From positions 1 through 64,000 of the forward strand of contig NZ_STGI01000014.1 of assembly GCF_004804275.1 (NCBI RefSeq): a stretch of DNA of 64,000 nt, written 5' to 3'. Position 1 is the first letter of the stretch; every line of letters starts with the position of its first letter. The position numbers and the translations under genes are program-made. The notes under the pieces are model-generated. The model was not told the origin of the DNA. It saw nothing but the letters and a program-made list of their open reading frames with translations, and did no database searches. Positions 37,932 through 64,000 of this stretch are shown in pieces. The stretch comes from Herbaspirillum sp. ST 5-3 (GTDB lineage Bacteria > Pseudomonadota > Gammaproteobacteria > Burkholderiales > Burkholderiaceae_D).

Positions 37932-37988
37932 TGGTGCGAGGAGGGGGACTCGAACCCCCACACCATTGCTGGCGTCAGGACCTAAACC
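37932..37988 (-). pseudogene. tRNA-Leu (UAG) 3' half: attachment site remnant
   Basis: On the minus strand this 57-bp piece runs from the anticodon loop (TTTAGGT) through variable arm, T-arm (GGGGGTTCGAGTCCCCC) and acceptor strand CCTCGC, discriminator A, to an encoded CCA. The 5' half (acceptor 5' strand, D-arm and anticodon 5' stem) is absent. AT-rich foreign DNA begins at the anticodon loop instead. This is the displaced 3' end left when an integrase recombines in a tRNA gene. The restored full tRNA-Leu should lie at the other end of the element, beyond position 64,000. Confidence 0.9.
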
Positions 37989-38226: not shown

Positions 38227-39606
38227 ATGGCAAACATAGCAAACCGATCACCTTGGCTCGTCACCTGCCCTGGATTGCCCGACAGCAAGATCCGGCTCAA
38301 GTCCAAAGCCCAAGCCTACCTTGACGGTCTCAAGAACCCATCAGCCAAGATGGTGCAGCTAGAGACAGCCTTTGAAGTTCAGATCAAGTTGAAAGACAAG
38401 CTTGGCAATGTGGTCCAGGACAGCAAAACCTGTAGCACTAAAGCTGAAGCCGAAGCATGGGCTAAAAAACGAGAAGATGAAATTCTTGCCTATAAAAAAA
38501 CAAACGGTCACTTTGACATAGGCTATGAAACCATCTCGCTTGAAGAAGCGCTAAATAAATTAATGGAAGAACACTATAAGGGGAAATCTTCATACGAAGA
38601 GAATTCTTATCGTGTGCCTCACATTGTTCAATTTTTTGGCAAGAAAAAACTATTAAAAGATGTAACAACAAGAGATTGCCTGGACTACCGAAAATATTTA
38701 GAGACTGAAAAATATTCAGCCTCAAGCATCCGAAATTATTTTGTCGTGATTAATGTATTGTTCAAGCATGCCGTTAGCGAATGGCTCTACGCCATTCCTA
38801 ACCCTGCGGCCGGCATCAAGTTGCCAAAGGTTTCCAATGCTGTGCAAAGATATTGGAAGGAAGAAGAAGAAAGAAAACTGGTTCTTGAAGCGGTTAAAAA
38901 ATACCGTCCAAACATTTTAGATGCTGTTGAACTAGCCTTGCTGGTGTCGTTTCGCAAAGGTGAACTTGTCCCGAAAACGCTACTTGAGAAGCATGATGGG
39001 ACAGGCTTGATGTGGGAAGGTGTCAATTTTAAAAATAATACGATCACCCTCTTCCAAGAAAAAAACGATCACAAGAAAAGAAATACAGAATACAAAGGTC
39101 GCACGGTTCCCATGCCCAAGAGAGCAAGGGAAATTCTTTTACGAAGGTATGAGGAAAGCCCAACTAAGAAAGGCAGGGTTTTTGAGTTTTCGGGAAATAC
39201 TCTTTACCATGCTTTTAAATGGTGCTGCCGAAAGATTGGCATTGAAGACTTGAATGTGCATTCTTTGCGGAAGATTGCAACAGTAGATTTAGGGCACAAG
39301 GTTCAAAATGTTTTGCAACTGTCAAAAATGACAGGACATAAAAGCCTGCAAGTTCTAAATGATCGCTACTACAATCCTAGCATTGAAGAATTACAATCCC
39401 TATTGGTGGAAATTGACACCAATAATCCCATCTTAAAATGTATTTTAATTCTAGAAAAGCATGTTGGAAAAACAAATGCTCAGGAATTTTTGAAGTTTGT
39501 TCGCGAAGCTCCAATCAATGAACCAATAGATGAAAGCGAAGACTTATACGAGCAATTAAAATTAATTTCGGACAGCCTTGAGGAAGCTGAGGCTGAAGAA
39601 ATCTAA
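38227..39606 (+). CDS. int: Tyrosine-type site-specific integrase
   Basis: A tyrosine recombinase of 459 residues that would integrate and excise the element at tRNA-Leu. It has an N-terminal arm-binding-like region, a core-binding helical domain (about 95-190: TRDCLDYRKYLETEKYSASS) and the catalytic domain (about 200-390). The first Arg is in LALLVSFRKGELV, the H-x-x-R box is LNVHSLRKIATVDL, the following His is in KMTGHKSLQVLNDR, and the nucleophilic Tyr is in DRYYNPS. It extends about 60 residues beyond this. It stands next to the attachment site, as usual. No excisionase is recognised nearby. Confidence 0.93.
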   Translation: MANIANRSPWLVTCPGLPDSKIRLKSKAQAYLDGLKNPSAKMVQLETAFEVQIKLKDKLGNVVQDSKTCSTKAEAEAWAKKREDEILAYKKTNGHFDIGYETISLEEALNKLMEEHYKGKSSYEENSYRVPHIVQFFGKKKLLKDVTTRDCLDYRKYLETEKYSASSIRNYFVVINVLFKHAVSEWLYAIPNPAAGIKLPKVSNAVQRYWKEEEERKLVLEAVKKYRPNILDAVELALLVSFRKGELVPKTLLEKHDGTGLMWEGVNFKNNTITLFQEKNDHKKRNTEYKGRTVPMPKRAREILLRRYEESPTKKGRVFEFSGNTLYHAFKWCCRKIGIEDLNVHSLRKIATVDLGHKVQNVLQLSKMTGHKSLQVLNDRYYNPSIEELQSLLVEIDTNNPILKCILILEKHVGKTNAQEFLKFVREAPINEPIDESEDLYEQLKLISDSLEEAEAEEI

Positions 39607-41730: not shown

Positions 41731-41760
41731 TTTCTTCCTCTCTTTTTATACTTATATTTA

Positions 41761-41818
41761 TTTATAGCAAAAGGAAAGTCGTTGTCAATACGAAAGAGGG
41801 GAAAATTAAATATTTTTA
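41761..41818 (-). promoter_or_regulatory. Class I ICE promoter/operator upstream of the tail-anchored pair
   Basis: On the minus strand AAATATTTAATTT, a C-rich core and CGTATTGACA lead into the -35 TTGACA (41783-41788), a 16-bp spacer and the -10 TATAAA (41761-41766). It is one of six similar sites in the element. Confidence 0.75.
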
Positions 41819-41877: not shown

Positions 41878-41905
41878 AAAAGCCCCGAAGGGCTTTTTTT
41901 TAGAT
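41878..41905 (-). terminator. Terminator of the relaxase operon
   Basis: AAGCCC, loop TTCG and GGGCTT on the minus strand, with seven T following. The stem also has a T-run on the other side. Confidence 0.9.
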
Positions 41906-44900
41906 GGTCAGTGATTTTTTATTGTTTTGTGCTTCTTTTTGCTTATCTGTTAGCTTATCATCTTCAAATAAACTATCAACATTTGACAGATTTCCAATAG
42001 AGTCAAAACCGCTCGTCATCGCTAAACTAGCTTCACCATTGATGACAATGGATTGTTTCAACCTGATTTGCTGCTCTTCCTGCTTGGCTTCAAAGTTCCC
42101 AATTTTCTCCATCATGGCTGCAACACGCCTATCAAGAACCTTATAGTCAAATGTCGTTTTCTTGACCTCCAAGACTGTTGAGGCGATTAACAAGTTTTCA
42201 TACTCGTCCATAGGATGCGATTCAATTTGGAAAAGCTCTTTCACTGCATATTTCTTGATAAAGTTCTTCGCTCTTGCATAGGACCAGTCTTCAACATTTG
42301 TGCCTGAATTCTTGAACTCAAAATTTTGATACTCAACATATTTTTTGATTAGTGCTATGTCTTCGGGTAGTGCTACAAGCTTCTTCCTTGCTGTGTCGTT
42401 AAGATCGCCTTTCAATCCATCGTGCAAGAAAAGCCCCATGTCCTTCTTGTGCCTGGATAGAGCAACCAACATTGGATTAAGGTTCTGAACCTTGGAGATC
42501 ACAACCCCAACATAGTCTAAGCTCGCCCCTTGGCTCTTGTGGATGGAGTACGCATAGGCATGTGACATATCTAGCTTCTGATCGGTCGCTATGGTTCTCT
42601 CGGCGCCATCGCTCGTTTTGATGGTCATCTTATTGTTTTCAGGATCAACGGCTATCACTTCAGCTTGCTCACCATTCTTCAATCCAAATACCGTGTTCTT
42701 TCTCTGCTTGTGGTTTTTGATCACATTACCGAACTTATCAAAAGAGGTTGTTCCTGTTCCCAAGAACATGACCTTATCCCCCTTCATAAATTCTTTCTTA
42801 CCAAAATCCACGGTTTCAACAGAGACTTCAACAGGCTTTTCTTTTAATTCAGATTTAATTTTCTCCCTGATCGCAATGTTCAACTTGTCAGCAACTTCAT
42901 TGGTGTCAGTGATGACAACCCTACTTTCCTTGTATTGGGTATCAAAATATTCTTGAACGGCATTGGAAATAGCTCCGTCAATGTCCTTAGCCTTGTAGAA
43001 CACTTTGCCTTCATCACAATATCTTTTGATTGCAATGTCTCCTTTTTTATCAGAAAGGTCTTGTGTCATCTGTCGTTGCCAATTCTCTTCCTGGCGGTTC
43101 ACGATGGTTAATTTAGATGTGTTGTAGTTCTTACGGCTTAATGTAGTGAACCCCTGCCCTACCCCGACAGGAGTTAATTGCTCTGTCTGACCCATTGCAA
43201 TTAGCTTTGGTCGTTGACCTTCGGGAAGCTCGTTGATGTGGTCGCTTAACCTAATCCACATTCTTAAATCGCACATGCCCATTTCATCGGCAATGATTAC
43301 ATCATTTGCAGTGAGCTTTCTCTTACCGCTATCCAAGTCAGTAAGAAGTTTTGCAATGTTTGCCGATTCGTTGGTATCAATGCTTTGTCTTAAATTCTCA
43401 GTATTTAATGCGCTTGTGCCAACTGCAATGATGTTGAAACCCTTCTGCTGATAGGCTTCTTTGATGACCTTGCTTGCAAAAGATTTACCTGTGCCTGGTA
43501 GCCCTTCAATGATTGCCAAAGCACCTTCCTTGGTGGTTGCATTCACTATTGCATTCACCTGTTCATGTGAAAGCTTCGGAAGCGCTGACTTCTCATCTTG
43601 TCTAAGGAAGGTGATTCTTTCCAATGCCTTCATTTTTTCATCTTGAGGAATGTCTTTCTTAATTTGTTCTTCAAGATGTTTGAGTTCATTGATGGCATCA
43701 ACTTTTGCTGTTAAATCCTCAAAGTCCCTAATTGCTTTTGCCTGCTTCTTCTCATCAAGGGTAGCCAAGTATTCAGGTGTTAAGCGTGCTTTTGTTTTCT
43801 CAAACTTCTTCAAGGTGTCTTCAATAATTCCATCATTGAAGGACCTGATAAGCTTCCTAACATCGCTATCGGCAAGTAAGAAATCTTTAGCAAATCGTCT
43901 GCTTTCCCATGCTGCAATCATTCTCTTTTCGTTTTCAACCAAGACCTTATCCATAAAAAGAAGATCCTTTTTATATTTTAGCTGTGCATCTTCCTGCTCA
44001 TCCAAAGAGAGTTTTTTATCTAGCAGCCTTTCATAGTGCTTATCTGCTTCATGAGTTAAGCAACCTGTGAAGTGTCTATCAAAGATTTCTTCAGCTAGTT
44101 TTTCAGCATCTATTCTATTGGTATAGGTGATCAGCTTTCTAACGAAGAAACCAACAGCGGCTTCTTCCCTGGTTGCTGCCTGTTTAGAATAGTCATGGAA
44201 GCTTTCAATCAATTCTCTTTCGAAGACCTCCATAGACTTGTTTTCATTAGCAAGAGCATCAATCAACCCTTGTCTATTTTTGTTGGTGTCCGCAAATGTC
44301 TGAAGTGATTTAAGGTCGTCAGCGGTAACGCCGTGTTCCTTACCAACCTCTCTCCAAAGCTTCTGAAGCTCGCTTAATGACATTTCTGTTTTGCCGTTCT
44401 TGGTCTTTAGTTGTGCCAATGCCTTAGCATCAATGCTATCGGTATCTCCGCGAAGTTCGGGACCGTCATCAACAATTGACCCATTCTCTTCCAGGTATTT
44501 AGCAACACCTTCATTAGCTTCAGCTTGGATTTCTTTTGATCTTTGACTGAAGGTTTCCACCAATTTTTTTAACTTATCTGGAATCTTGATGGTGTGGGTT
44601 AGAACACCTCTCTCAGTCTCTTTTTTGTGGGGGTTCTTCTCAACCTGGTCAGCTTTCACATATACAGCCTCAGTTTCAAACCCAAGCTCTTCCCTGTCCA
44701 TTTCAGTAACCAATGAACAAAATAATTGGTTGTAGTAAGCCTTTCTTTTCGCAATAAGAGAATTATCTAAGGAATAGTAATTTCCATCCTTATCAATGGC
44801 TGTGTTCATCACAATTAAATGGTCGTGGTCAAAGGGCTCAGGAAGTCCACCTTTTGGCCCGCGATTTTCACCATGAGAATTTTGAACGGCGATGATTCCC

Positions 44901-45481
44901 GCGCCTCTCTGTTCTTTCGTAATCCCGTTCTCAGTTATTCGAACAATCGCATCCTTCTCCATTTCCTTGACAACCATAGCCAAAGCACGGCTCTTGATGG
45001 TCATCATCTTCTTGTAAAGCTCAGGATCAAGAATGGCGGCCTGGGAGGAAATAACTGAGCGTTCTTTGGTGGTGGTAAATAAAATTTCTAGTCCAACTCT
45101 TCTGTCGTCCTTCGGATCTGTCGGGAACTGAATTTCACCATTAACAACATCAAAAGCTTTATCGTTTAATTTTTTTGGATTGTTGCTTAGGTCTGCATTT
45201 GCCTCATAACCGGCACATAGCTTTCTAAAGCTTTCAGGATCGACAATCGCTCCCTCCAATCCAAGGTTTTCGGCAATCCTCCCGATGTAAGTAGGAGCAA
45301 GAGGATTCTTGGAAACCTTCTCTTGAACTTCAGGAAGCTTCATTAGCTCATCATCTGCCAGGCTGGCATGTTCAGGGAAAAGCTTCCTAGCATCTGCTAT
45401 GAATTGTTTTTGGTAGTAGTCAATTTGGTCCATAAAATACTGACCTGACTTTATATTTTGATAGCCTTGAATAGTTGACAT
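41900..45481 (-). CDS. MobF-family conjugative relaxase-helicase (TrwC/TraI-like)
   Basis: This would nick oriT, stay bound to the 5' end of the strand and unwind the DNA for transfer. It has 1,193 residues. The N-terminal relaxase domain (about 1-320) has tyrosine candidates Y15 and Y22/Y23 (QYFMDQIDYYQ), spaced as in TraI. The metal histidines are H203 and the pair in FDHDHLIVMN (H219, H221). The helicase part has Walker A IIEGLPGTGKSFASKVI (about 655-670), Walker B VIIADEMGMCDLRMW and the late motif AYSIHKSQGASLDYVG of SF1/RecD helicases. Three small genes precede it in a tight operon, with a candidate oriT upstream. Confidence 0.93.
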   Translation of the reverse strand: MSTIQGYQNIKSGQYFMDQIDYYQKQFIADARKLFPEHASLADDELMKLPEVQEKVSKNPLAPTYIGRIAENLGLEGAIVDPESFRKLCAGYEANADLSNNPKKLNDKAFDVVNGEIQFPTDPKDDRRVGLEILFTTTKERSVISSQAAILDPELYKKMMTIKSRALAMVVKEMEKDAIVRITENGITKEQRGAGIIAVQNSHGENRGPKGGLPEPFDHDHLIVMNTAIDKDGNYYSLDNSLIAKRKAYYNQLFCSLVTEMDREELGFETEAVYVKADQVEKNPHKKETERGVLTHTIKIPDKLKKLVETFSQRSKEIQAEANEGVAKYLEENGSIVDDGPELRGDTDSIDAKALAQLKTKNGKTEMSLSELQKLWREVGKEHGVTADDLKSLQTFADTNKNRQGLIDALANENKSMEVFERELIESFHDYSKQAATREEAAVGFFVRKLITYTNRIDAEKLAEEIFDRHFTGCLTHEADKHYERLLDKKLSLDEQEDAQLKYKKDLLFMDKVLVENEKRMIAAWESRRFAKDFLLADSDVRKLIRSFNDGIIEDTLKKFEKTKARLTPEYLATLDEKKQAKAIRDFEDLTAKVDAINELKHLEEQIKKDIPQDEKMKALERITFLRQDEKSALPKLSHEQVNAIVNATTKEGALAIIEGLPGTGKSFASKVIKEAYQQKGFNIIAVGTSALNTENLRQSIDTNESANIAKLLTDLDSGKRKLTANDVIIADEMGMCDLRMWIRLSDHINELPEGQRPKLIAMGQTEQLTPVGVGQGFTTLSRKNYNTSKLTIVNRQEENWQRQMTQDLSDKKGDIAIKRYCDEGKVFYKAKDIDGAISNAVQEYFDTQYKESRVVITDTNEVADKLNIAIREKIKSELKEKPVEVSVETVDFGKKEFMKGDKVMFLGTGTTSFDKFGNVIKNHKQRKNTVFGLKNGEQAEVIAVDPENNKMTIKTSDGAERTIATDQKLDMSHAYAYSIHKSQGASLDYVGVVISKVQNLNPMLVALSRHKKDMGLFLHDGLKGDLNDTARKKLVALPEDIALIKKYVEYQNFEFKNSGTNVEDWSYARAKNFIKKYAVKELFQIESHPMDEYENLLIASTVLEVKKTTFDYKVLDRRVAAMMEKIGNFEAKQEEQQIRLKQSIVINGEASLAMTSGFDSIGNLSNVDSLFEDDKLTDKQKEAQNNKKSLTI

Positions 45482-49759: not shown

Positions 49760-49768
49760 CCTTTTTTA

Positions 49769-49827
49769 GTTATATTAAATTAAAATTATTTGTCAATACT
49801 TTAAAGGAGAAAATTAAATATTTTTTT
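49769..49827 (-). promoter_or_regulatory. Class I ICE promoter/operator upstream of the ParA-like operon
   Basis: On the minus strand AAATATTTAATTT, TCTCCTTT and AAGTATTGACA lead into the -35 TTGACA (49791-49796), a 16-bp spacer and the -10 TATAAC (49769-49774). Confidence 0.78.
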
Positions 49828-50910: not shown

Positions 50911-50940
50911 AAAATAAAGCCCCTTTCGGGGCTTATTTAT
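50911..50940. terminator. GCCCC-type terminator between convergent genes
   Basis: AAAGCCCC, loop TTTC and GGGGCTT. A T-rich stretch follows on the minus strand, serving the coupling-protein gene, and a weaker one on the plus strand. Confidence 0.87.
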
Positions 50941-53240
50941 ATAATTCTTCGTTCATTTATTCCCTGCCATTGATTCATCATGTTGGGCAAACTCGGCACT
51001 CTGTAAGTTTCGTTCAACCAATCCGCGCGTACTGGCTCACTTCGTTTCGGATAAGTCAGAAGTGGTATTTCCAAGAGAAAGACAGGATTTAATCCGCCGG
51101 CAATGTAGCAGTATTTGATTGTCTTGGTTGGCAAGTCCACCCCTAAATAATTGAACTCATCGGGCGTCATAACCTTATTTTGGAGTTCCTTGGGGCTCTC
51201 ACTTGTGGACTTGCCCCCTGCTCCCCAAGATGTTGTGCGATCAGGTCGTTTGATTGTGGCTTCGCCAACTAACCTTGAATACTTCTCATTGGTTTCACCG
51301 TCATTTGTTCCTAACAAAAATATTGAGCCGACATTTGAAGTTAAGAAGTTTGTCCACTCTTTTTTGTAGGTATCTTCAAGTTGGGCCAAGTCCTGGAAGG
51401 CAAGGCTAACTGACACTCCGCGGCTACGGAAAAGAGCCAAAGCTTTAGAAGTGAACTTCTTGATGTTCCCGTAAGATTGGAATTCGTCAATGATCAAAAG
51501 AAATTGTCTTTTATCGCTGTCTTCCAACTCACCTAAAATAATACTTGAAGAATAGTCCAAGATACCTCTGATGAAGCTATCAGTAAGTGTCGGGAATGCT
51601 TCGGATGGCTTCAACACTAGAATCTTTTTTGATGGTTTTTCATCCAAAATCCAATCTCTAATGGACAACCTTTTTTGATTTTCAATTTCGTCCCATTGTT
51701 TAGCATAGTGGACGACATTCGCGCACAGATCAGCCCATGCCCTTACTACTTCACTGTTTGAGGCCACACCTTGAAATATTTCTTGTTCATCCTTATCCAA
51801 TGTGTGTGCGGAGATGATTTTTTTAATTTGCTTCTCAACGGGCATTTCCAGATACTGAGCCAAGTGCTTCCATGCCCAAACCTTTTCTTTGCCAGCTTTG
51901 TTATTCAATGCCTTCACTAGACCTTTGAACATATTAGCTTTGAACTGTGCTTCGTTCTTGGATGGATTTCCTTTACCTTTGTTCTCTTCCGCTTCATCGT
52001 TATCATTTCTCATTTCATCAACGATAAAATTCAAATACAGATCACTTCTCAATGCTCGTGCTGTGGCTTGGTAGATAGCTCCTTTAATATTAAAGCCATC
52101 AAATACCCTTGAGATTTGAATTAAATCCTTAGTGTATGTTCCGATGTTGAACATGACACTTGATAGCGTTTCTTCGTGAGCATTAAGAATTTGCATTGAT
52201 TCAGGGTAGAACTTTGTCAGTATCGGTTCTAGTTCTTCGCCTGACTTCATCAGCATGTAAGCAAGCATTCCTGCATTCCAGGCTTTAGGGGCAACACCTT
52301 GGAGGAACACGGTTGCACCTGTTCCCACTGCAATGGCAGCTTCCGGCCAAATATCAGCATTTTCACTGACAGGGATTTTTCCCCTCCAAAAAGATTCAGC
52401 GACTAGGTTGTTATAAATGTCCGCTGGCATATCCCAAGCAATAGAGCCCTTTTCATGGGGCGCCCATCTCCACATGTCTTCCTCAGCAAACAGGGTAGCG
52501 TAATCGCCTTTGGGCGTATCCGCGATGAACATCTTGACATTTTCCCCATTGCGAATTTTTTGGTATTCCTGGGAGACAAGAATATATTTGATGGATTGAG
52601 ATTTACCTCTACCTGTTCCCCCTGTGAAGATGTGATGTTTTGTTCTTACATCTTCGGGAATTTCGATAACATCGCCTCTATCAACCTCATCAATGCTTGT
52701 CTCATTGGGGTTAAATTTTCCGCTACGGCTCGCAAGAATTAGCCTTGAACTAAATTGCTTTTTTTTCCCGATCATGCGGTCAAACGCTTGTTTGAGGAAT
52801 TCAAAAGCCTCTAAGCCTTCTAGCTTTTTCTTACCTCTAATAACCTGAATTCCGGTTCTTACTTTGAATGCTGATTTGAAGACAAAGTAACCGCATATAA
52901 AGCCAAGAACCAAGGGAGTGAATACAAGGACCTGGTATGTCCCTGCGACCCCTGCAATCATCGCTTGCTTGTCCAGGGCGTTATAGACCCTGAAACCATC
53001 AGAGACAAAGCCGCTGCGCAGTAAGCCAAAGAAGAAATTCCAATAATGAAAAGCCATCAAAAAAGGATGTTCAGGGATTTGAACGGGATACATTCTTAAT
53101 GTCAGCAACAAGGTAATTGAAACGACAAAAAAGAAAGTGGTTGACGAAAGATAGATTGCTGCCTTCAGGCTTCTAAATTTAATCGTTGGATCGCTCGGAT
53201 CGTTTTCTAATGGATATACTATTTTTATTTGCTCTTTCAT
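50937..53240 (-). CDS. Type IV coupling protein (VirD4/TraD-like)
   Basis: An inner-membrane ATPase that links the relaxase-DNA complex to the secretion channel. It has 767 residues. Membrane segments lie at about 28-50 and 98-120 with a periplasmic loop between them. The ATPase has Walker A HHIFTGGTGRGKSQSIKYIL (about 203-222), Walker B RQFLLIIDEFQSYGN (about 577-590) and the following VSVSLAFQDLAQLEDTYKKE, typical of TraD/VirD4. The LLGTNDGETNEKYSRLVGEA stretch also fits. It is second in a two-gene operon after a 117-residue protein. Confidence 0.92.
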   Translation of the reverse strand: MKEQIKIVYPLENDPSDPTIKFRSLKAAIYLSSTTFFFVVSITLLLTLRMYPVQIPEHPFLMAFHYWNFFFGLLRSGFVSDGFRVYNALDKQAMIAGVAGTYQVLVFTPLVLGFICGYFVFKSAFKVRTGIQVIRGKKKLEGLEAFEFLKQAFDRMIGKKKQFSSRLILASRSGKFNPNETSIDEVDRGDVIEIPEDVRTKHHIFTGGTGRGKSQSIKYILVSQEYQKIRNGENVKMFIADTPKGDYATLFAEEDMWRWAPHEKGSIAWDMPADIYNNLVAESFWRGKIPVSENADIWPEAAIAVGTGATVFLQGVAPKAWNAGMLAYMLMKSGEELEPILTKFYPESMQILNAHEETLSSVMFNIGTYTKDLIQISRVFDGFNIKGAIYQATARALRSDLYLNFIVDEMRNDNDEAEENKGKGNPSKNEAQFKANMFKGLVKALNNKAGKEKVWAWKHLAQYLEMPVEKQIKKIISAHTLDKDEQEIFQGVASNSEVVRAWADLCANVVHYAKQWDEIENQKRLSIRDWILDEKPSKKILVLKPSEAFPTLTDSFIRGILDYSSSIILGELEDSDKRQFLLIIDEFQSYGNIKKFTSKALALFRSRGVSVSLAFQDLAQLEDTYKKEWTNFLTSNVGSIFLLGTNDGETNEKYSRLVGEATIKRPDRTTSWGAGGKSTSESPKELQNKVMTPDEFNYLGVDLPTKTIKYCYIAGGLNPVFLLEIPLLTYPKRSEPVRADWLNETYRVPSLPNMMNQWQGINERRII

Positions 53241-53615: not shown

Positions 53616-53651
53616 AGCCCTTCCCTTTTTAATTTTATTGTTGCTAATATA

Positions 53652-53710
53652 TTTATAGTAAATTAAAATTTATTGTCAATACTTTTTAGGGAAAAATTAA
53701 ATATTTTTTA
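53652..53710 (-). promoter_or_regulatory. Class I ICE promoter/operator upstream of the coupling-protein operon
   Basis: On the minus strand AAATATTTAATTT, TTCCCTAA and AAAGTATTGACA lead into the -35 TTGACA (53674-53679), a 16-bp spacer and the -10 TATAAA (53652-53657). Confidence 0.78.
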
Positions 53711-53723
53711 CGGCACGGCGAAA

Positions 53724-53751
53724 TAAAAAAGCCCCATCGTCGGGGCTTTGC
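53724..53751 (-). terminator. Terminator of the AAA+ ATPase gene
   Basis: AAGCCCC, a 6-nt loop and GGGGCTT on the minus strand, followed by six T. Confidence 0.9.
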
Positions 53752-53753
53752 TG

Positions 53754-55616
53754 TTAGAAACCAATTTTGTTTTTTGTTGGCTCTTTTGCTTTGTCAAAGT
53801 GGGACAGACTTACTTCTATTTTTTTATTTTCTTCTTGAAGCTTATCTAGTTCTTCCTTTGAGTGTTCAAGCAATACTTTTGACACTGCACTTGAGATTTT
53901 TCCTTTCGCAACCCTTGGAGCATCATCCAAGAGCCAAGAAACAACCTCTTCATTGAGGGTGTCCATGAACACTGAGCAATCACAGATTTCATTCTTGTAG
54001 ATGTTCTGAATGATCTTCTTCTGTTCGTCCTGGTTGGGCCTCTGAATGTGGAAGATGCGGAATCTTGTTTGCAATGGATCAGGAAGGCTATCTAAGCCGT
54101 TTGCACAAGCGATGAAGATCATCGGGGATATGTCGACAGGACACTCTACAAACTCATCAACAAAGGCTTTAGCACTGCCCTCTTCTAGAAGCTGATAGAG
54201 AGCGTTTAAGGGGTTGTCGGCCGCGTCCTGTGATGACTTGTCCACCTCATCCAACAAAACGATTGGAGACGCTGTAGGGCTGTCTAACATCGCTTCAAAT
54301 ATCTTTCCTGGCTTGGCGCCCTTCCAAGATGAATTCAAGCCGTTTAAAACCCAATATGTTGATGTTGATGCCATGTCAACATAACTAAACCCTGTGTTCA
54401 GCTTGCTTGCTAAAGTTCTAGCAAACATGGTCTTGCCTATACCTGGTTCGCCGGTTAGCAAGATCGGTTGAAAGCGGTTCTTGTCTGCTAGGGCATTGAA
54501 GCGAAACTGAGACTTATAGAACTGAATGACTTCTCTGAAGTTTGGGAACTGATTCTCCAACTCATCAAATACTAATTCGTTTTGAGCAAATAACTTTTCC
54601 TTGACAGGATCGCTCTCTAAAATTCTTCTGTAGTGCCTTGATGAGTCTCCGTCCTCGTTATTCTTTGGAACCTTTGCAAGAATTCTTTTATCAAACCATT
54701 TATGGTAATTCTTCCCGACTCTAAAGTCTGCGATCGGAAGGCTAACTTCCATTCCTTGTGTCTCTTTTATATAGCACTCGGTTAAATACTCGGTTGCAAT
54801 GCGATGCTGGTCTGGACTGTCTTCTTTAAAGGACTGTATGGCAGAAACATTTAGAAGGTGAAGACTCCTTGCCTTAGAAACCTGATATTTTTCTTCCAAC
54901 CTGGCTTCCACCTGGTCAAGATAACGAATTATTTTATTCCTCAAAAAGTCGGGTGCGCTGCTATTGCCTTTGTAGAAGTCAACTATCTCATCCACATCTT
55001 TAAAGTCGAAATCATCCTCAAGGTAGGACTGAATATAATTTTTAATGCAGAACAAGCCGTTATCATCAGGATATAGGCGTGGCGGTTTGGCTGAATATTT
55101 CAATGCGAGTTCATCTACAGTCTTTTCCACATCATTAAATATTTTTTCCTCATCCTCAAGGATGCTTTCCAGCTTCACGCCAGCATTAGCGTTGTTTTCT
55201 TCTTTTTCTTCAGCCTCCATAAAGACATTTATTTCACTGTCTTCGCCATCATCATCATCATCATCGTCAGTTCTTTCCACTCTTTTTATAGCTTCTAATC
55301 TATACTCTTCAGCCACCATTTCTTCAGTTGTTTTATTTAAATCACCTGTCGTAGTGCTTTCGGTTTGATTTGCGAAGGTGTTAGTTTCTTGTTCTTGCAC
55401 CTGGTTGAACAGATTGACACTGTTGCTACCTTCGATTTCTTTGTCCCTCTCATCATTCAAGCGGCGAAATTCTCTGTTCACATCATTGATGAAGGATACG
55501 ATTAGGAAGAACCAAAAAAAGACGGTGTAACCTATCAAGTGAAGTATTACGGCATACAGTTTTTTAGATAAGTATTTTCTGTTGAGGCTTTCTAACTCAG
55601 TCGGCTTTGAAAACAT
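53754..55616 (-). CDS. Membrane-anchored AAA+ ATPase with Lon-like ATPase module, no protease domain
   Basis: A 620-residue protein. A membrane span lies near the N-terminus (LYAVILHLIGYTVFFWFFLI, about 20-44). A long charged linker follows with a run of seven aspartates (about 117-123, coded by a GAT repeat) and a helical region. The AAA+ module has Walker A LLTGEPGIGKTMFARTLASK (about 386-400), Walker B SPIVLLDEVDKSSQD, sensor 1 in MIFIACANGLDSLP and an arginine-finger region DPLQTRFRIFHIQ. The wording of the module resembles Lon/LonB, but no Ser-Lys protease domain follows. It is a single-gene unit under a class I promoter. Unfolding or assembly work at the transfer channel is possible. 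Confidence 0.78.
   Translation of the reverse strand: MFSKPTELESLNRKYLSKKLYAVILHLIGYTVFFWFFLIVSFINDVNREFRRLNDERDKEIEGSNSVNLFNQVQEQETNTFANQTESTTTGDLNKTTEEMVAEEYRLEAIKRVERTDDDDDDDGEDSEINVFMEAEEKEENNANAGVKLESILEDEEKIFNDVEKTVDELALKYSAKPPRLYPDDNGLFCIKNYIQSYLEDDFDFKDVDEIVDFYKGNSSAPDFLRNKIIRYLDQVEARLEEKYQVSKARSLHLLNVSAIQSFKEDSPDQHRIATEYLTECYIKETQGMEVSLPIADFRVGKNYHKWFDKRILAKVPKNNEDGDSSRHYRRILESDPVKEKLFAQNELVFDELENQFPNFREVIQFYKSQFRFNALADKNRFQPILLTGEPGIGKTMFARTLASKLNTGFSYVDMASTSTYWVLNGLNSSWKGAKPGKIFEAMLDSPTASPIVLLDEVDKSSQDAADNPLNALYQLLEEGSAKAFVDEFVECPVDISPMIFIACANGLDSLPDPLQTRFRIFHIQRPNQDEQKKIIQNIYKNEICDCSVFMDTLNEEVVSWLLDDAPRVAKGKISSAVSKVLLEHSKEELDKLQEENKKIEVSLSHFDKAKEPTKNKIGF
55240..55270. repeat. ATC/GAT trinucleotide repeat inside the AAA+ gene
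   Basis: A run of ATC units with one variant codes for seven aspartates in the acidic linker. Length changes would add or remove Asp residues without a frameshift. Confidence 0.8.
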
Positions 55617-55645
55617 ATTTGCTCCTTTTGTTATTGTTTTGAATA

Positions 55646-55703
55646 CCTATAGCAGATAGATTCAACATGTCAATACTTTTAAGGGGCAAATTAAATATTT
55701 TTG
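55646..55703 (-). promoter_or_regulatory. Class I ICE promoter/operator upstream of the AAA+ ATPase
   Basis: On the minus strand AAATATTTAATTT, GCCCCTTA and AAAGTATTGACA lead into the -35 TTGACA (55668-55673), a 16-bp spacer and the -10 TATAGG (55646-55651). Confidence 0.77.
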
Positions 55704-56796: not shown

Positions 56797-57792
56797 ATGA
56801 AAAGAACTAACAAATTAAAAAAAATCGCTTTATCTTTAGCATTGACAGGTTCATTCGTCGCGATGGGTTCAGCGCATGCTGAGACAGGCAAGGTTGTCTT
56901 TGCGTATCAAACAGGTTGGGCATACTTACCTATCCATGTGATGAATGAATTGAAATTGGTTGAGAAACATGCAAAAGCTCTTGGTGTGAATGTCACTACT
57001 GAATATAAAGCACTTGGCACACCTGGCATGATTAACGATGCGATGAATGCAAACCAAGTGGACTTCGGGACAGTTGGCATCCCTTCCTTAGTGACCCTCA
57101 ACGACAAGACTAAGGGGCAATACAAGGCTGTAGGAGCAATCGTTGACTTACCTATGTACCTAAACACTACTGCGTCATACAAAAGCATCTGTGAGTTCAA
57201 AGAAGGCGACAAGATTGCTCTCCCAACTGTGAAAGTATCTGTCCAGGCAGTGACCCTACAAATGGCAGCAAAGCAGCAATGCGGCGACCCATACAAGTTG
57301 GACAAGTTCACCATCTCTTCTACCCATCCAGACGGTTTCACTTCTCTAATGTCAGGCAATGTGATTGGACACTTCACCAGCCCTCCATTCCAGTATTCAG
57401 AATTGAAAGACAAAAAAGTTAAAACATTGGTGAGTTCTTACGATGTTCTAGGAGGTAAGTCCTCATTCATCTCTTTAGTCGGAAAGCAGACTTTTGCAGA
57501 TGCTAATCCAAAGGTCCAGAAAGCAGTATATGAAGCCTTAGTAGAAGCCCAAGAGTGGATCAACAAGAGCAAGATCGATGCAGCAAAACTCTACTTTAAA
57601 GTGGAACAGCCAAAGAATCAGACAATGGACGAAGTTCTAGGTCAGCTTACTGACAAAGAAATTGAATTCACAGCAGTTCCACACGGAATTGAGAAGTATT
57701 CAAAGTTTATGAATGAAATCGGCACTGCAAAGAGCAACGCAACTTGGAAAGACTTGACCTTCCCAGCAGTTCATAACAAGAAAGGTTCTTAA
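56797..57792 (+). CDS. ABC transporter substrate-binding protein (SsuA/TauA/NMT1-like)
   Basis: The periplasmic receptor of an importer carried by the ICE, 331 residues. The signal peptide is cleaved after GSAHA near residue 28. The mature part starts VVFAYQTGWAYLPIHVMNEL, matching the NMT1/SsuA type 2 binding fold. LGTPGMINDAMNANQVDFGT and NVIGHFTSPPFQYSELKDKK are further family-like blocks. Relatives bind sulfonates, nitrate, thiamin precursors or aromatic acids. The substrate here is not identifiable. It has no lipobox, so it is soluble in the periplasm. It is first in a tight three-gene operon. Confidence 0.88.
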   Translation: MKRTNKLKKIALSLALTGSFVAMGSAHAETGKVVFAYQTGWAYLPIHVMNELKLVEKHAKALGVNVTTEYKALGTPGMINDAMNANQVDFGTVGIPSLVTLNDKTKGQYKAVGAIVDLPMYLNTTASYKSICEFKEGDKIALPTVKVSVQAVTLQMAAKQQCGDPYKLDKFTISSTHPDGFTSLMSGNVIGHFTSPPFQYSELKDKKVKTLVSSYDVLGGKSSFISLVGKQTFADANPKVQKAVYEALVEAQEWINKSKIDAAKLYFKVEQPKNQTMDEVLGQLTDKEIEFTAVPHGIEKYSKFMNEIGTAKSNATWKDLTFPAVHNKKGS

Positions 57793-57796
57793 TATC

Positions 57797-58549
57797 ATGG
57801 ATAAACGACTATCAACAGAAATACAAGAAAAATCACCTCTACTTCAGGTAGTTGGGGCGACAGTCGTTTATTCCACCAAGACTTCAAGAAATACGGCTAA
57901 CTACCGTGTTTCCTTTGAAGTGGAGGAAGGGAATATTGTGATGTTTCTAGGTCATTCAGGTTGTGGAAAGACCACTTTACTCAATGCAATCGGTGGCTAC
58001 CTTCCAACGGCAGAGGGCGAAATTCTTTTGGACGGTAAAAAGGTTGTTGGTCCTGGACCTGATCGCATGGTTGTATGGCAGGACACTAACCAACTCTTCA
58101 ATTGGTTGACTGTTCTTCAGAATGTGGTGTTTCCTCAAGTTAGTAACGGCATATCAAAAGCCGAAGCGACGGAAAGAGCTGTCCATTTTTTGCGCAAGGT
58201 AAAGCTTATGGACCATCTGAAAAAGTATCCACATCAACTTTCAGGTGGTATGAAGATGAGAGTTGCGATTGCAAGAGCCTTGGCAATGAAACCGAAGATG
58301 CTTCTTATGGATGAGCCATTCGCTGCCCTGGATGCTCTAGCAAGAGAACAACTACAAGACGAAGTATTGAAAATTTCCAAGGAAGAAGGAACAACGATTG
58401 TATTTGTGACCCATGATATTAAGGAGGCCGTGAAAATGGCAGACAAAATTATTGTACTATCCAAGAATCATGGTCAGGTCAAAGCAATCTTCCGTGGCAA
58501 GCAAGAAGGACTAGAACAGAAAATAGAAGAACTAATAAAAGGAGAATAA
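57797..58549 (+). CDS. ABC transporter ATP-binding protein (SsuB/TauB-like)
   Basis: A 250-residue ATPase with Walker A MFLGHSGCGKTTLLNAIGGY, Q-loop in VVWQDTNQLFNWLTVLQNV, signature HQLSGGMKMRVAIARALA, Walker B MLLMDEPFAALDALAREQ and switch histidine in IVFVTHDIKEAV. This is the pattern of the nitrate/sulfonate/taurine group. It starts 4 bp after the binding-protein stop and ends 4 bp before the permease. Confidence 0.94.
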   Translation: MDKRLSTEIQEKSPLLQVVGATVVYSTKTSRNTANYRVSFEVEEGNIVMFLGHSGCGKTTLLNAIGGYLPTAEGEILLDGKKVVGPGPDRMVVWQDTNQLFNWLTVLQNVVFPQVSNGISKAEATERAVHFLRKVKLMDHLKKYPHQLSGGMKMRVAIARALAMKPKMLLMDEPFAALDALAREQLQDEVLKISKEEGTTIVFVTHDIKEAVKMADKIIVLSKNHGQVKAIFRGKQEGLEQKIEELIKGE

Positions 58550-58553
58550 TAAA

Positions 58554-59411
58554 ATGGATAAAGATTTAATATTTGACACTGAATCGGTAAGGATTGAAGA
58601 CACAAGCAGAGAACTTAATTTTGTTGAAAAACTAAAAGAAAACCAAGTCTTCAGGAAGATGATGATTCTCGTTGTACTAGCAGGACTATGGGAGCTTGTA
58701 GCAAGATATGTGAACAATCCAATGATGCTCCCTACCTTTGTGGACATTACTAAAGCCCTAGTGGAGAGTCTCATGACAAAAAATCCTGAGAACGCCTTAG
58801 CGGGTTATTTCGCCAACTCAATGACAAGTTTATTTAGTGGTTTCGGTCTAGGGGTCTTAGTAGCAGTCATTGCTACAATTTTTGCAGTGAACTCTAGGAT
58901 TGGCGAAGACATTTTGCACACCATAACAGCATTGGGAACACCACTGCCGGCCGTAGGGGTTCTGCCTGTTGCGATGTTGATGTTTGGCTTGACCTTCAAG
59001 ATGGTTCTCTTTGTCGGTGCATGGGCGACCATGTTCCCTGTAGCACAGAACATGTTCATGGGCTTCAAGACCTCTTCAAAGACCATCTTGAATGTTGGGA
59101 GGAACATCGGCCTGACTGGTATCGCCTACACACTGAAGGTTCGCATCCCTGACACCCTTCCCTCCATCCTCACAGGCTTGAGAACAGGCTTCTCCAACGG
59201 TTTTAGAGCCCTGGTAGCCCTAGAGATGGTGATCGGCGCAGCAACAGGCTCAGGAGGCTTAGGATGGTTCATAATGAACGGAAAAAATCAAATGGATGCA
59301 CCGACAGTCTTTGCAGGATTGTTCGCAACAATGTTCGTGGGTATTGCCATTGAAGCGTTGTTTGGATTCGTTGAAAAACACACCACAAAGAAATATGGAA
59401 TGATGAACTAA
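58554..59411 (+). CDS. ABC transporter permease (SsuC/TauC-like)
   Basis: The inner-membrane permease of the ICE importer, 285 residues with about six spans after a charged 35-residue N-terminal tail. The ATPase-contact loop is GRNIGLTGIAYTLKVRIPDT, followed by LPSILTGLRTGFSNGFRALV, as in SsuC and TauC. With the two preceding genes it makes a complete importer; a single permease gene implies a homodimer. A terminator follows at 59440. Confidence 0.93.
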   Translation: MDKDLIFDTESVRIEDTSRELNFVEKLKENQVFRKMMILVVLAGLWELVARYVNNPMMLPTFVDITKALVESLMTKNPENALAGYFANSMTSLFSGFGLGVLVAVIATIFAVNSRIGEDILHTITALGTPLPAVGVLPVAMLMFGLTFKMVLFVGAWATMFPVAQNMFMGFKTSSKTILNVGRNIGLTGIAYTLKVRIPDTLPSILTGLRTGFSNGFRALVALEMVIGAATGSGGLGWFIMNGKNQMDAPTVFAGLFATMFVGIAIEALFGFVEKHTTKKYGMMN

Positions 59412-60708: not shown

Positions 60709-61197
60709 TTACTTTGCGAACAATGGTATCCACTCGCTTTTTCTTTGCATGAAATCCGACACCGCACACAATGATCTGTGTTTGATTTGGAATGCTCTAA
60801 AAGAAAATTTAAAGGCATTTGCAAGGCATACCGTCGTAATCGTTAATGCACTTACGGCGCCCAATAAATTTCCATCAAATACATAGCCTAATCCTACCCC
60901 GGCACATGCAAGCGCAAAAACAACAGATACATAAAAAGTGATAACAAAATTATTGTAGTTCTTTTTTAAGTCCTCATCGGTTACGCCGTGTCTTTGAACA
61001 GCTTGCTCAAATGTCTCTTTACGGGCGTTCTCAATGTATTTTTTTGGGGTTAATACAAGTGATGCCATCTGCTTAAAATAGTTGTGATTCTGTTTGATTG
61101 CTTCTACACCGGCCGTATTTTTAACTGTGCCGACAATGCTTCTAATTTCATTGCGAACTGCATTTTTGGTAGTCTGAAAGATTTTTTTAAATATCAT
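60709..61197 (-). CDS. Membrane protein of the transfer region, 162 aa
   Basis: A basic helical N-terminal part of about 85 residues is followed by two hydrophobic spans (VITFYVSVVFALACAGVGLG and NLLGAVSALTITTVCLANAF) and a short cytosolic tail. It recalls the small TraX/IcmC-like membrane proteins of IncI/Dot-Icm systems, but I cannot assign it. It is a single gene under a class I promoter, near the DotA-like gene. Confidence 0.65.
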   Translation of the reverse strand: MIFKKIFQTTKNAVRNEIRSIVGTVKNTAGVEAIKQNHNYFKQMASLVLTPKKYIENARKETFEQAVQRHGVTDEDLKKNYNNFVITFYVSVVFALACAGVGLGYVFDGNLLGAVSALTITTVCLANAFKFSFRAFQIKHRSLCAVSDFMQRKSEWIPLFAK

Positions 61198-61235
61198 AAT
61201 AATTCTCCTATAGTTATTATTATTTTCATATAACT

Positions 61236-61336
61236 AATATATTAAAATAAAATTTAAAGTCAATACTTTCTTGGGAAAAAAATAATACTTATTTGCACCA
61301 TCTTCGTATTGACATTTTTTTTAAATCTAATATAAG
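61236..61336. promoter_or_regulatory. Divergent promoters: class I (minus) and TTGACA-type (plus)
   Basis: On the minus strand a variant class I block with AAGTATTGAC leads into the -35 TTGACT (61258-61263), a 16-bp spacer and the -10 TATATT (61236-61241). On the plus strand GTATTGACA gives the -35 (61309-61314), a 16-bp spacer and the -10 TATAAG (61331-61336). Confidence 0.7.
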
Positions 61337-62050: not shown

Positions 62051-64000
62051 TTATTTCTTAAGCATTTTTTCTAAAGCTGTGTCCATCGCCTCACTCACAC
62101 CAACATTGTTCTTCTCTGCATAACCTTTCACGATATTCAAAGAGTCACCGATTTTGTCCTTGATTTGTAGTGGTGATAAACCTTTCGCCTGGTAGAAGCC
62201 ATGAACAGATTTAAGCTGTTCAACACCTTTTGTGAAGTCTGAACCGGCCAAGCTGCCATCTGATGCTTGTGATAAGTAATCCGCTGAACCTGCTCCAAAT
62301 TTTTCATCTAGCGCGCCTGAGAATGCTTTTTGATGTGCTTCACCGAAAGACATGCCTTCGTCCAGGTTGCTGACTAGATTCTCCCTATAAGCTTCCGCAT
62401 CAGAAGTATCTTTACCACCCAAAGTGTGATTTGCCTTGTCTAGTGTCGACTGTATCTGCTGGCCTTCTAGTGAATTGAAAAGCTGAGGATTAGGACCCGT
62501 AAATTTTCCAATGTTAGCTAAAGCTTTCCCCACTATGTTAGAACCGTTTGAACCAAGATTTTTGTTGATAGCGCTGGAAGTCGCGTCATGCTTTTCACCA
62601 ACTCGTTCTAGCTCTTTGGCACTTCCTTCCATATTCTTTTGCTCATTCTTCTTCATCTCGTTATGCTCACCAAATTTCTTATTGGAGAGATTTTTCAAGC
62701 CACCACTTAAAGTGTTTCCAATATTATTGGTTGCCATGCCTATTGCACCTGAAGCAAGCGCACTTGCTCCGGCAGCACCATTCATTTGACTAGCTGAAGA
62801 ACTGAAATCACTGCCTGAGTTAGTTACCCACTTCAAGACGCTATCAGGAATTTCATGAATGAGATTGAATATTCTCTTAATTACAGAGTATGTAACTATG
62901 CCGTATAGCACGCTTGCAAAGATTGTGCTTGTCAACATTACGAATATGTTTGAATCTTCAGATAGTGAAATGAATGTGTCGTTAAAGATTGCGGCAACAT
63001 AATTCCCCATGATTGGCAATAGAATAATGCTCACCGCGGTTCCGAAAACAAGCAAGGTTGGTTTCAAAATTAAGTTTAACAACAAGCGGTAGCCTTGAGC
63101 TCCACTGCCAACCATGTCATCACCTTTTCCCGCAAGGTGCATAACTGCCCAAACAGGTGCGATTATGATTGCTTCGACACACATGACAATCCATCCGATG
63201 ATTGCGGAAATCAATAAAATTGTCGGGGTGAACGGTATGAGGAATGAGCAAATAAAACCGCCCATACTCAGCATAGGAACAAACAACATTATTGTTGAGC
63301 CAATAGCAGCAGTAACCCCGCCTCCGATACCTGGTATAGCATTACCTGCCACCATAGCAACAACACCACTAGCATAGCCTGCCCCTGCCCAAGACAACAT
63401 GCTGTTACCGATTCTCTTCAATGCCATCAAAGGATGCTCATTTGGCTGGAATAGCATTGGTGTTTCACCGCCTGTGAACAGTGATTTCACTGCTAAATTC
63501 CAATTGAAGTTTGGATTAATCATGTCAGTGACTGAAAAACCTGATCCCTGGTTGTTTGAACCTCCGCTTTCAAAAGATATTCCGTAAGCCTGTCCACGCT
63601 GGCTTTTGGTAATCACCGCCATCATGTTGTTATAAGACTGAATATATTGGTCTTTGAATACACCGCCATTGATGGTTGGTGCAGTTGTGGTTGGGACTTT
63701 TGCCATACTTCTTTGGATGAGATCGTTGAGTGAAGCCATCTTGACATAGAAATTTGCCATCCCAACAAATCCATCTTGGCTGGCGTTTTCTGAGACTTGT
63801 TTGAACTCGTCAATAGCAAGAATTTCGCTTGTTGCTTTGTCTCTTACTGCCAACTCATATTTATTGATAACCGCGTCTATAGCTGCTGGATCAACTGCAC
63901 CACCATTCACAATCGATTGTGCCTGTGACTGCATTGAACCCATCATTATTGATAATTGGTTTAATTGTTCAGCATTAATGTTCGCTAATCTTTGCTTGCT
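62051..64000 (-). CDS. DotA/TraY-family integral membrane protein (partial, runs off the window)
   Basis: A core membrane component of MPF-I/Dot-Icm type IV secretion. The frame is open to the window edge: codons before the first visible ATG (63946) encode ..LANINAEQLNQLSI without a stop, so the N-terminus is missing. At least 649 residues are seen; family members often reach 700-1,100. The diagnostic block is FLIPFTPTILLISAIIGWIV, then EAIIIAPVWAVMHLAGKGDD and GAQGYRLLLNLILKPTLLVF. About five spans follow each other, then a long polar Gly/Asn/Ser-rich C-terminal tail. It is probably the end of a longer secretion operon. Confidence 0.88.
   Translation of the reverse strand, partial: SKQRLANINAEQLNQLSIMMGSMQSQAQSIVNGGAVDPAAIDAVINKYELAVRDKATSEILAIDEFKQVSENASQDGFVGMANFYVKMASLNDLIQRSMAKVPTTTAPTINGGVFKDQYIQSYNNMMAVITKSQRGQAYGISFESGGSNNQGSGFSVTDMINPNFNWNLAVKSLFTGGETPMLFQPNEHPLMALKRIGNSMLSWAGAGYASGVVAMVAGNAIPGIGGGVTAAIGSTIMLFVPMLSMGGFICSFLIPFTPTILLISAIIGWIVMCVEAIIIAPVWAVMHLAGKGDDMVGSGAQGYRLLLNLILKPTLLVFGTAVSIILLPIMGNYVAAIFNDTFISLSEDSNIFVMLTSTIFASVLYGIVTYSVIKRIFNLIHEIPDSVLKWVTNSGSDFSSSASQMNGAAGASALASGAIGMATNNIGNTLSGGLKNLSNKKFGEHNEMKKNEQKNMEGSAKELERVGEKHDATSSAINKNLGSNGSNIVGKALANIGKFTGPNPQLFNSLEGQQIQSTLDKANHTLGGKDTSDAEAYRENLVSNLDEGMSFGEAHQKAFSGALDEKFGAGSADYLSQASDGSLAGSDFTKGVEQLKSVHGFYQAKGLSPLQIKDKIGDSLNIVKGYAEKNNVGVSEAMDTALEKMLKK

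Follow-up and report, generated by a model that had tools for sequence, protein, structure and literature searches.

Membrane-anchored AAA+ machines such as FtsH, Msp1 and Yme1 consist of an N-terminal anchor followed by an AAA+ ring, and in LonB, the membrane form of Lon, membrane helices are inserted in the AAA module and a protease domain is present. In ClpX, IGF loops are described as docking on the H sites of ClpP (PMC9035409). With regard to conjugation, TraY is described as building the entry exclusion system of MPF-I together with ExcA (PMC6112013). It has also been described that SGI1, an island that is not self-transmissible, carries replacement subunits for the mating pore of its helper under regulated promoters, namely TraN, TraH and TraG for an IncC helper (PMC5389848). 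A search of the literature, leaving aside preprints and most subscription papers, listed no title or opening of an abstract that dealt with conjugation and a Lon-type ATPase devoid of protease, or with mobilizable elements that have DotA as their only channel gene.

The locus described here lies in the window, a stretch of 64,000 nucleotides from Herbaspirillum sp. ST 5-3 (contig NZ_STGI01000014.1, positions 1 to 64,000), and encodes a Lon-type AAA+ ATPase of 620 residues with a predicted membrane anchor (53754..55616, minus strand). The reading that we favour, and to which we give about even credence, is that this protein is a Lon-type unfoldase without protease, tethered to the membrane, which belongs to the transfer regulon of a mobilizable element resembling SGI1 and probably remodels a protein of the conjugation machinery.

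The Integrative Element

The ATPase gene belongs to an element of 42,347 bp (contig 37,989-80,335) with a G+C content of 40%, compared with 57-60% in its flanks. The host tRNA-Leu(TAG) gene is split inside the anticodon region, and part of it (37933..37988, minus strand) adjoins the left end of the element. Neither flank alone contains an intact tRNA-Leu gene, and the ends of the element are supported because an intact one results when the two flanks are brought together at the CCTAAACC core. The element brings a complete, different tRNA-Leu(TAG) of its own (contig 79,952-80,038).

The products of the element include a tyrosine integrase (38227..39606, plus strand; PF00589), a MobF (TrwC-type) relaxase-helicase (41900..45481, minus strand; PF08751, 100.5 bits against a cut-off of 25) and a TrwB/TraD-type coupling protein (50937..53240, minus strand; PF10412, 123 bits against a cut-off of 20.5). 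An IcmV/TraX-like membrane protein (60709..61197, minus strand) matches NF038219 with an E-value of 1e-15 and 58 bits, below the cut-off of 100. The DotA/TraY gene (62051..64000, minus strand) runs on to contig 64801, and its product reaches 192.6 bits with TIGR04346 on 62051-63946, against a cut-off of 100. Further genes encode ArdC, a P4-type primase, a type III restriction system and an Hcp protein. Since a P4-type primase is present, the element may replicate after excision.

Two other gene groups of the element can be mentioned here. A complete plus-strand ABC transporter operon (56797-59411), with a binding protein, an ATPase and a permease identified by eye, is found as cargo in the middle of the transfer region. 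At contig 71703-73026, the gene of the Hcp protein (PF05638) is accompanied by that of a BPSL0067-family protein and by a small gene whose product probably begins with a signal peptide; the group may be effector and immunity cargo of a T6SS.

Anatomy of the ATPase

The ATPase gene is an ATG-to-TAA open reading frame with matches in Pfam, NCBIfam and the PDB. A single hydrophobic helix, predicted to span the membrane, covers residues 22-45 (55482..55553, minus strand). It is the sole strongly hydrophobic stretch of the 620 residues (Kyte-Doolittle 19-mer maximum 2.32) and is enclosed by a helix that AF2 predicts over residues 6-63, with a pLDDT of about 77-88 over residues 21-50; the AF2 model, made from three aligned sequences, is poor as a whole (mean pLDDT 49.3, with 395 of the 620 residues below 50). 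The helix is followed by an acidic linker (residues 46-284, net charge -30) that includes a run of seven Asp at residues 117-123 (55248..55268, minus strand).

The remainder of the protein begins with a region (residues ~285-380; 54477..54764, minus strand) that is collinear with the start of stand-alone relatives of ~320 aa. It continues with the Lon-type AAA+ module (residues 381-540; 53997..54476, minus strand), a small lid domain containing Pro567-Arg568 with a linker to the tail (53772..53996, minus strand) and a C-terminal NKIGF tail (53757..53771, minus strand). The module carries the Walker A motif GEPGIGKT, the Walker B motif LLDEVDK, Trp431, Asn506 and Arg518; we take Trp431 to be the pore-loop position, the Asn to be a sensor and the Arg to belong to the Arg residues of such modules. 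Directly 3' of the stop codon, a terminator-like stem-loop (53728..53749, minus strand) was identified by its match to a consensus only.

The preliminary description had proposed a single membrane span, a long acidic linker with an Asp run and the absence of a Ser-Lys protease domain, and all three are borne out: the chain ends after the lid, and no Pfam match to the Lon protease or Lon N-terminal family was found in the ATPase at E 0.1. Its reservation that the gene might be a truncated pseudogene does not apply, as the gene appears intact, with no stop or frameshift and with the ATPase motifs kept.

The orientation of the protein is less straightforward. Residues 1-21 have a net charge of +3, and residues 46-66 are about neutral (five K/R against six D/E). 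Taken alone, the positive-inside rule would place the N-terminus inside and the ATPase outside, which argues against a cytoplasmic ATPase; the ATPase domain is assumed here to be cytoplasmic because it needs ATP.

Relation to Lon and Other AAA+ Proteins

The NCBIfam lon model (TIGR00763) matches residues 379-548 with an E-value of 6.5e-30 and 104 bits, below its curated whole-protein cut-off of 608. In a sequence search of the PDB, the best 32 of the 60 matches listed are Lon chains, with a top E-value of 4.3e-25, and the next match stands at 2.7e-5. These Lon-type matches are far beyond chance. No LonB model appears among the best 25 of the 28 NCBIfam matches, the FtsH match is weak (E 2e-5, NCBIfam), and no metalloprotease or peptidase match was found in the ATPase. 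The profile comparison suggested in the preliminary description thus places Lon first, and of the "Lon/LonB-like" module named there the Lon part stands while the LonB part falls away: by its profile matches, the ATPase is LonA-like, not LonB.

It had also been claimed that the protein differs from the DotB/DotL-type ATPases of MPF-I systems, and this agrees with the searches. No secretion-ATPase family was matched, and tblastn of the contig at E 0.1 with R64 TraJ, TraU and TrbC, pOXA-48 TraJ and part of pOXA-48 TraU revealed no relation to MPF-I secretion ATPases.

A Family of Stand-Alone Lon-Type ATPases

A profile of eight such ATPases, the row of the window protein included, was searched against 300 genomes of the order, with up to eight candidates scored per genome. 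At a score of at least 170 bits, the family was found in 70 places in 62 of the 300 genomes, including that of the window (a hand count from the profile search). Its open frames range from 211 to 630 aa, and one of them, in genome G317, has an internal stop. The best canonical Lon in this search scored 159.6 bits, with an open frame of 815 aa, while the core of the window ATPase, in a frame without protease, reached 354 bits, its own row being part of the profile. No second family member above the Lon range was found in the window's own genome.

Fourteen rows were picked by hand for alignment, all of them with the C-terminal tail (the three tail-less rows of the eight-ATPase profile and a Variovorax row were left out). 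Residues ~285-620 of the window protein span the whole length of the stand-alone relatives of ~320 aa in this alignment. The Walker A and B residues, Trp431, Asn506, Arg518, Pro567-Arg568 and Gly619-Phe620 are invariant in the 14 rows, and Trp431 aligns with the pore-loop Tyr of the host Lon. As judged from these alignments, the window protein is a Lon-derived, protease-less core of ~335 residues with an N-terminal extension, and not a broken Lon.

The relatives are annotated as "AAA family ATPase" or "hypothetical protein", as on Aeromonas pWP2-S18-CRE-03_1, Variovorax WDL1 plasmid 2 and Polaromonas pPNAP02. NCBIfam recognizes the four relatives searched only as Lon far below the cut-off, and for the members tested no model of the family's own was found in Pfam, NCBIfam, PHROGs or PADLOC.

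Of the 78 distinct family open reading frames (the window's, 69 from genomes and 8 from plasmids), that of the window is the only one with a strongly hydrophobic helix at its N-terminus. No credible relative of the N-terminal 370 residues was found in 399 genomes of the order; a match to the N-terminal half in genome G098 (E 6e-4) was discarded as spurious, its open frame being a PpiD/SurA-type protein by eye. Among 72,556 plasmid records and 50,697 phage records, none matched the ATPase over 80% of its length. Exact peptide patterns of the ATPase gave no relative in viral contigs and one remote AAA match in genome contigs, a Nostoc locus with 24% identity over residues 383-594.

Several of these observations count against a role in transfer. 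No relative with the membrane extension was found in the genomes or in the plasmid and phage records. The tree, from which five family open frames without a Walker A pattern were omitted, also speaks against it, since the branch of the window protein in it is long (2.97); its neighbour is a clade of 43 rows, mostly of 318-409 aa, with a support of 95/79. The gene neighbourhoods listed, inspected by eye, point the same way, as most relatives do not lie beside transfer genes. In favour of a role in transfer, two of the eight plasmid relatives inspected (Acidovorax p1-T1 and Rhodoferax) have a gene for mobilization or a relaxase no more than 2 kb away; the other six have none among the features listed.

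A gene-neighbour signature common to the family was sought by eye in the same neighbourhoods, and none was seen. Some family members adjoin HAD-like or metallophosphoesterase genes, which could point to a tie in function elsewhere in the family.

A Promoter Module Shared with Transfer Genes

A module of 66 nt recurs in the element. It is made up of AAAAATATTTAATTT, a C-rich patch, GTATTGACA, about 16 nt and a TATAAA-like box, its upstream box being AT-rich. The matrix was built from six copies, and the sites of DotA and of the 142-aa gene were then found with it. Seven sites hold in leave-one-out scoring, with values of 33.8 to 70.1, compared with 15.5 to 22.2 for the next best places in the element and below -11 for the best place in 124 kb of host flank. 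The core motif, with up to three mismatches, occurs six times in the element; it is present in one of 399 genomes, and there within the element alone, and absent from the other 398.

The site of the ATPase lies 22 bp before its start codon (55638..55703, minus strand) and scores 42.1 in leave-one-out, against 15.5 for the best other place in the element. Further minus-strand modules precede the 117-aa gene and the coupling protein (53644..53709), the IcmV/TraX-like gene (61228..61293), the genes of a 125-aa (RHH-like), a 95-aa and a 310-aa P-loop protein (49761..49826) and the 229-aa and 242-aa genes (41753..41818). Beyond the window, the module of DotA/TraY is located at contig 64828-64893, and that of the 142-aa and 105-aa genes, at contig 66136-66201, completes the seven. 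Most of the seven units are linked to transfer. The ATPase is consequently tied to the transfer region, as the preliminary description had supposed, by a module common to the ATPase, coupling-protein, DotA and IcmV units. Given the terminator-like site after it, the ATPase gene probably forms a unit of its own, which would be activated together with the genes for transfer.

Two results of the promoter analysis weigh against a role in transfer. The 96-aa gene was rejected as an eighth member of the regulon, its site scoring -7.7 in leave-one-out though it was in the matrix, and no module was found before the relaxase operon. Among the best 16 sites of the scan, none lies before the ABC-transporter, ArdC or restriction units. 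Three IMG/VR contigs with a similar promoter pattern were set aside, as they have no genes in common.

MPF-I Channel Genes

The MPF-I system that the preliminary description had assumed as the setting of the ATPase is not complete in this element. When thirty R64 and pOXA-48 proteins were compared with the whole contig (tblastn, E 0.1), only TraY was found. R64 TraX gave no tblastn match on the contig, though the IcmV/TraX-like profile match (below cut-off) exists. R64 TraU was not found in the 5.8-Mb genome of the window, and as positive controls the same query found TraU in pOXA-48 (36% identity) and Pseudomonas pND6-2 (28%). Pfam DotH gave no match, in a search run without a positive control. 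The reading as a complete MPF-I ICE was rejected, since only DotA and the IcmV-like gene were found.

The element shares with SGI1-like islands the possession of its own pore subunits (DotA and, below cut-off, the IcmV-like protein) with no complete T4SS detected. The presence of DotA/TraY and IcmV/TraX would point to an MPF-I helper. Neither an MPF-I helper nor an oriT was identified, which counts against the transfer reading.

DotA/TraY was detected at E 1e-10 in 14 of 399 genomes of the order, including that of the window. In 18 stretches around DotA genes, from 11 of the other 13 genomes, the R64 and pOXA-48 queries match only TraY and some relaxases. TraU is present in two of these 13 genomes (G332 and G381, in the latter about 9 kb outside the fetched stretch) and gave no match in the other 11. 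A 29.9-kb Salmonella plasmid likewise has DotA/TraY, and TraU was not found in it. The genomes with DotA and without TraU, which are partly drafts with remote matches, fit elements that carry their own DotA/TraY and would borrow the rest of the channel. Such cases, the Salmonella plasmid included, may represent a general class of mobile elements with their own TraY for a borrowed MPF-I channel.

At E 0.1, the 18 stretches around DotA genes from these 11 genomes contain no relative of the ATPase, and none turned up in the portions retrieved of pCFSAN004025.2 and of R64, pOXA-48 and pND6-2, the three plasmids typed as MPF-I. In genome G124, outside these stretches, a DotA fragment at the contig edge is followed ~7 kb on by a family member of 416 aa, without a membrane helix and ending in MGFL. 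HAD-like genes lie nearby and an integrase related to that of the window is found just behind, all within ~11 kb. With ~0.23 family members per genome, a 20-kb neighbourhood and 3.4-Mb genomes, the number of such neighbourhoods of DotA and a family member expected by chance in 13 genomes is ~0.02. The outcome for the conservation beside coupling-protein genes raised in the preliminary description is accordingly mixed, as it fails in the 18 DotA stretches of 11 genomes and receives some support from this helix-less relative.

The C-Terminal Tail

The 14 rows chosen for the alignment all carry the tail, so its frequency has to be judged on the full set of 78 open reading frames. A hydrophobic-Gly-Phe motif occurs within the last 11 residues in 69 of them, with Ile (52), Met (10), Leu (4), Val (2) or Phe (1) as the hydrophobic residue; 31 of the 78 end exactly in GF, and nine have no tail. 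As a control, the same tail was found in six of 389 other mechanically called open reading frames of at least 150 aa from the fetched stretches. The ten residues before the tail have a mean net charge of +2.75 in the family. MGF is likewise the end of a relative from an IMG/VR contig, and the NKIGF end of the window ATPase fits the hydrophobic-Gly-Phe end of the family.

Proposed Role and Alternative Explanations

According to the favoured reading, the ATPase would be an inner-membrane-tethered AAA+ protein-unfolding motor, a putative hexamer with its ATPase in the cytoplasm, in which the protease-less, Lon-derived core of ~335 residues is joined to an extension of 285 residues (the hydrophobic helix, then the acidic linker). 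The motor would be produced together with the transfer components of the 42.3-kb integrative mobilizable element, which would depend on a putative helper for the other parts of an MPF-I (T4BSS) channel, as SGI1 does on IncC plasmids. It would most likely be located beside the conjugation machinery and use its aromatic pore loop to pull on a protein of the membrane or of transfer, perhaps when the helper's DotA or coupling protein gives way to that of the element. To remove or remodel a helper subunit would be a natural task for an element that inserts its own DotA into a borrowed channel. The channel, the relaxase and an exclusion complex, named as targets in the preliminary description, may each apply, the results favouring none over the others.

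The promoter module that the ATPase has in common with the coupling protein would also suit a motor acting in the cytoplasm on DNA-processing proteins (relaxase, primase, partition), the helix only placing the ATPase at the channel entry. A clamp-loader-type PHROG match (E 1.3e-16) and the P4-type primase, with the replication after excision that it may allow, are in line with this proposal, which we regard as rather unlikely: no clamp-loader match reaches the strength of that to Lon, and the relaxase operon lacks the module. The same promoter evidence bears on the suggestion that the ATPase is cargo for defence or competition, unrelated to conjugation. Its best PADLOC match is PDC-M37B (E 1.1e-11), some plasmid relatives lie near restriction-modification genes, and the element itself has a type III restriction-modification system. 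However, the PADLOC match is confined to residues 358-542, in the AAA region, and falls far short of that to Lon, and the module is shared with the transfer genes and not, among the best 16 sites, with the restriction-modification, ArdC or ABC-transporter units, so that a defence role appears unlikely. A truncated, decaying Lon would also account for a Lon-type module without protease, but the gene has neither stop nor frameshift and keeps its motifs, a family of like architecture is found in 62 of 300 genomes with the tail in 69 of 78 frames, and the gene has a promoter module and a terminator-like site; decay is therefore scarcely credible.

The tail introduces another possibility, in which the protein would be an unfoldase feeding the host ClpP. 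The tail would dock on the hydrophobic sites of ClpP like the IGF loop of ClpX, and the tethered motor would degrade membrane proteins of the helper or the host. The excess of the tail over the controls, the positive charge before it and its presence in the IMG/VR relative agree with this proposal, as does its predicted placement on the side of the ring that in Lon would bear the protease; the docking of ClpX IGF loops on H sites provides the precedent (PMC9035409). On the other hand, a three-residue motif is weak evidence, the motif of ClpX is an internal loop and not a C-terminus, the profile that selected the family itself contained the tail, and nine of the 78 members lack it. Moreover, the tail is near the junction of ATPase and protease in Lon (host Lon ...GVRRYDFG..., by eye), and the sober alternative is that it may be a changed remnant of this junction used in ring packing. 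Feeding of ClpP is thus held to be decidedly unlikely. A more far-reaching version, which we consider improbable, would make the whole widespread family Lon-derived motors that lost their own protease and dock on host ClpP through a C-terminal [I/M/L/V]-Gly-Phe, adding to ClpX and ClpA/C another kind of motor for ClpP; the tethered copy in the transfer regulon would here extract and destroy the pore or exclusion protein of the helper while the element's DotA/TraY and IcmV/TraX take over the borrowed channel.

To return to the remodelling of a conjugation protein as the favoured role, its significance would be that, if the ATPase has a part in transfer, the contribution of mobile elements to conjugation includes a motor that remodels proteins, beyond the ATPases that pump DNA. 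As for the family, which occurs in 62 of the 300 genomes searched and for whose tested members the four databases have no model of their own, its widely kept C-terminal tail offers a handle on a possible new class of ClpP motors.

Comparison with Known Systems

The window protein and Lon (LonA) have in common the AAA+ module with Walker A and B motifs, the aromatic pore-loop position, the Asn sensor and the Arg residues, and Lon is its best match in NCBIfam and the PDB. Unlike Lon, it lacks the Lon N-terminal and Ser-Lys domains, has an N-terminal hydrophobic helix and ends in IGF. In comparison with LonB, there are no helices within the AAA module, the only strong hydrophobic stretch being residues 22-45. 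The N-terminal membrane anchor ahead of a predicted AAA+ ring recalls FtsH, Msp1 and Yme1, but the sequence is of Lon type, with an FtsH match of only E 2e-5 and no metalloprotease match. With its stand-alone relatives on plasmids and chromosomes it is collinear over ~335 residues at up to 34% identity, and the xGF tail is found in most of them, whereas the membrane helix (one of 78) and the transfer-gene promoter are found only in the window protein. Like the IGF loop of ClpX, which is internal (PMC9035409), the C-terminal tail of the window ATPase has an aliphatic-Gly-Phe motif that would lie on the distal side of the ring.

Finally, as in SGI1, an element with no complete channel carries its own mating-pore subunits under shared promoters (PMC5389848). 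SGI1 has TraN, TraH and TraG to fit its IncC helper, and the abstract of that account names no ATPase of this kind (PMC5389848), whereas this element has DotA/TraY and IcmV/TraX. The element may extend the strategy of SGI1, in which a replacement pore subunit is supplied and the rest is borrowed, to MPF-I channels.
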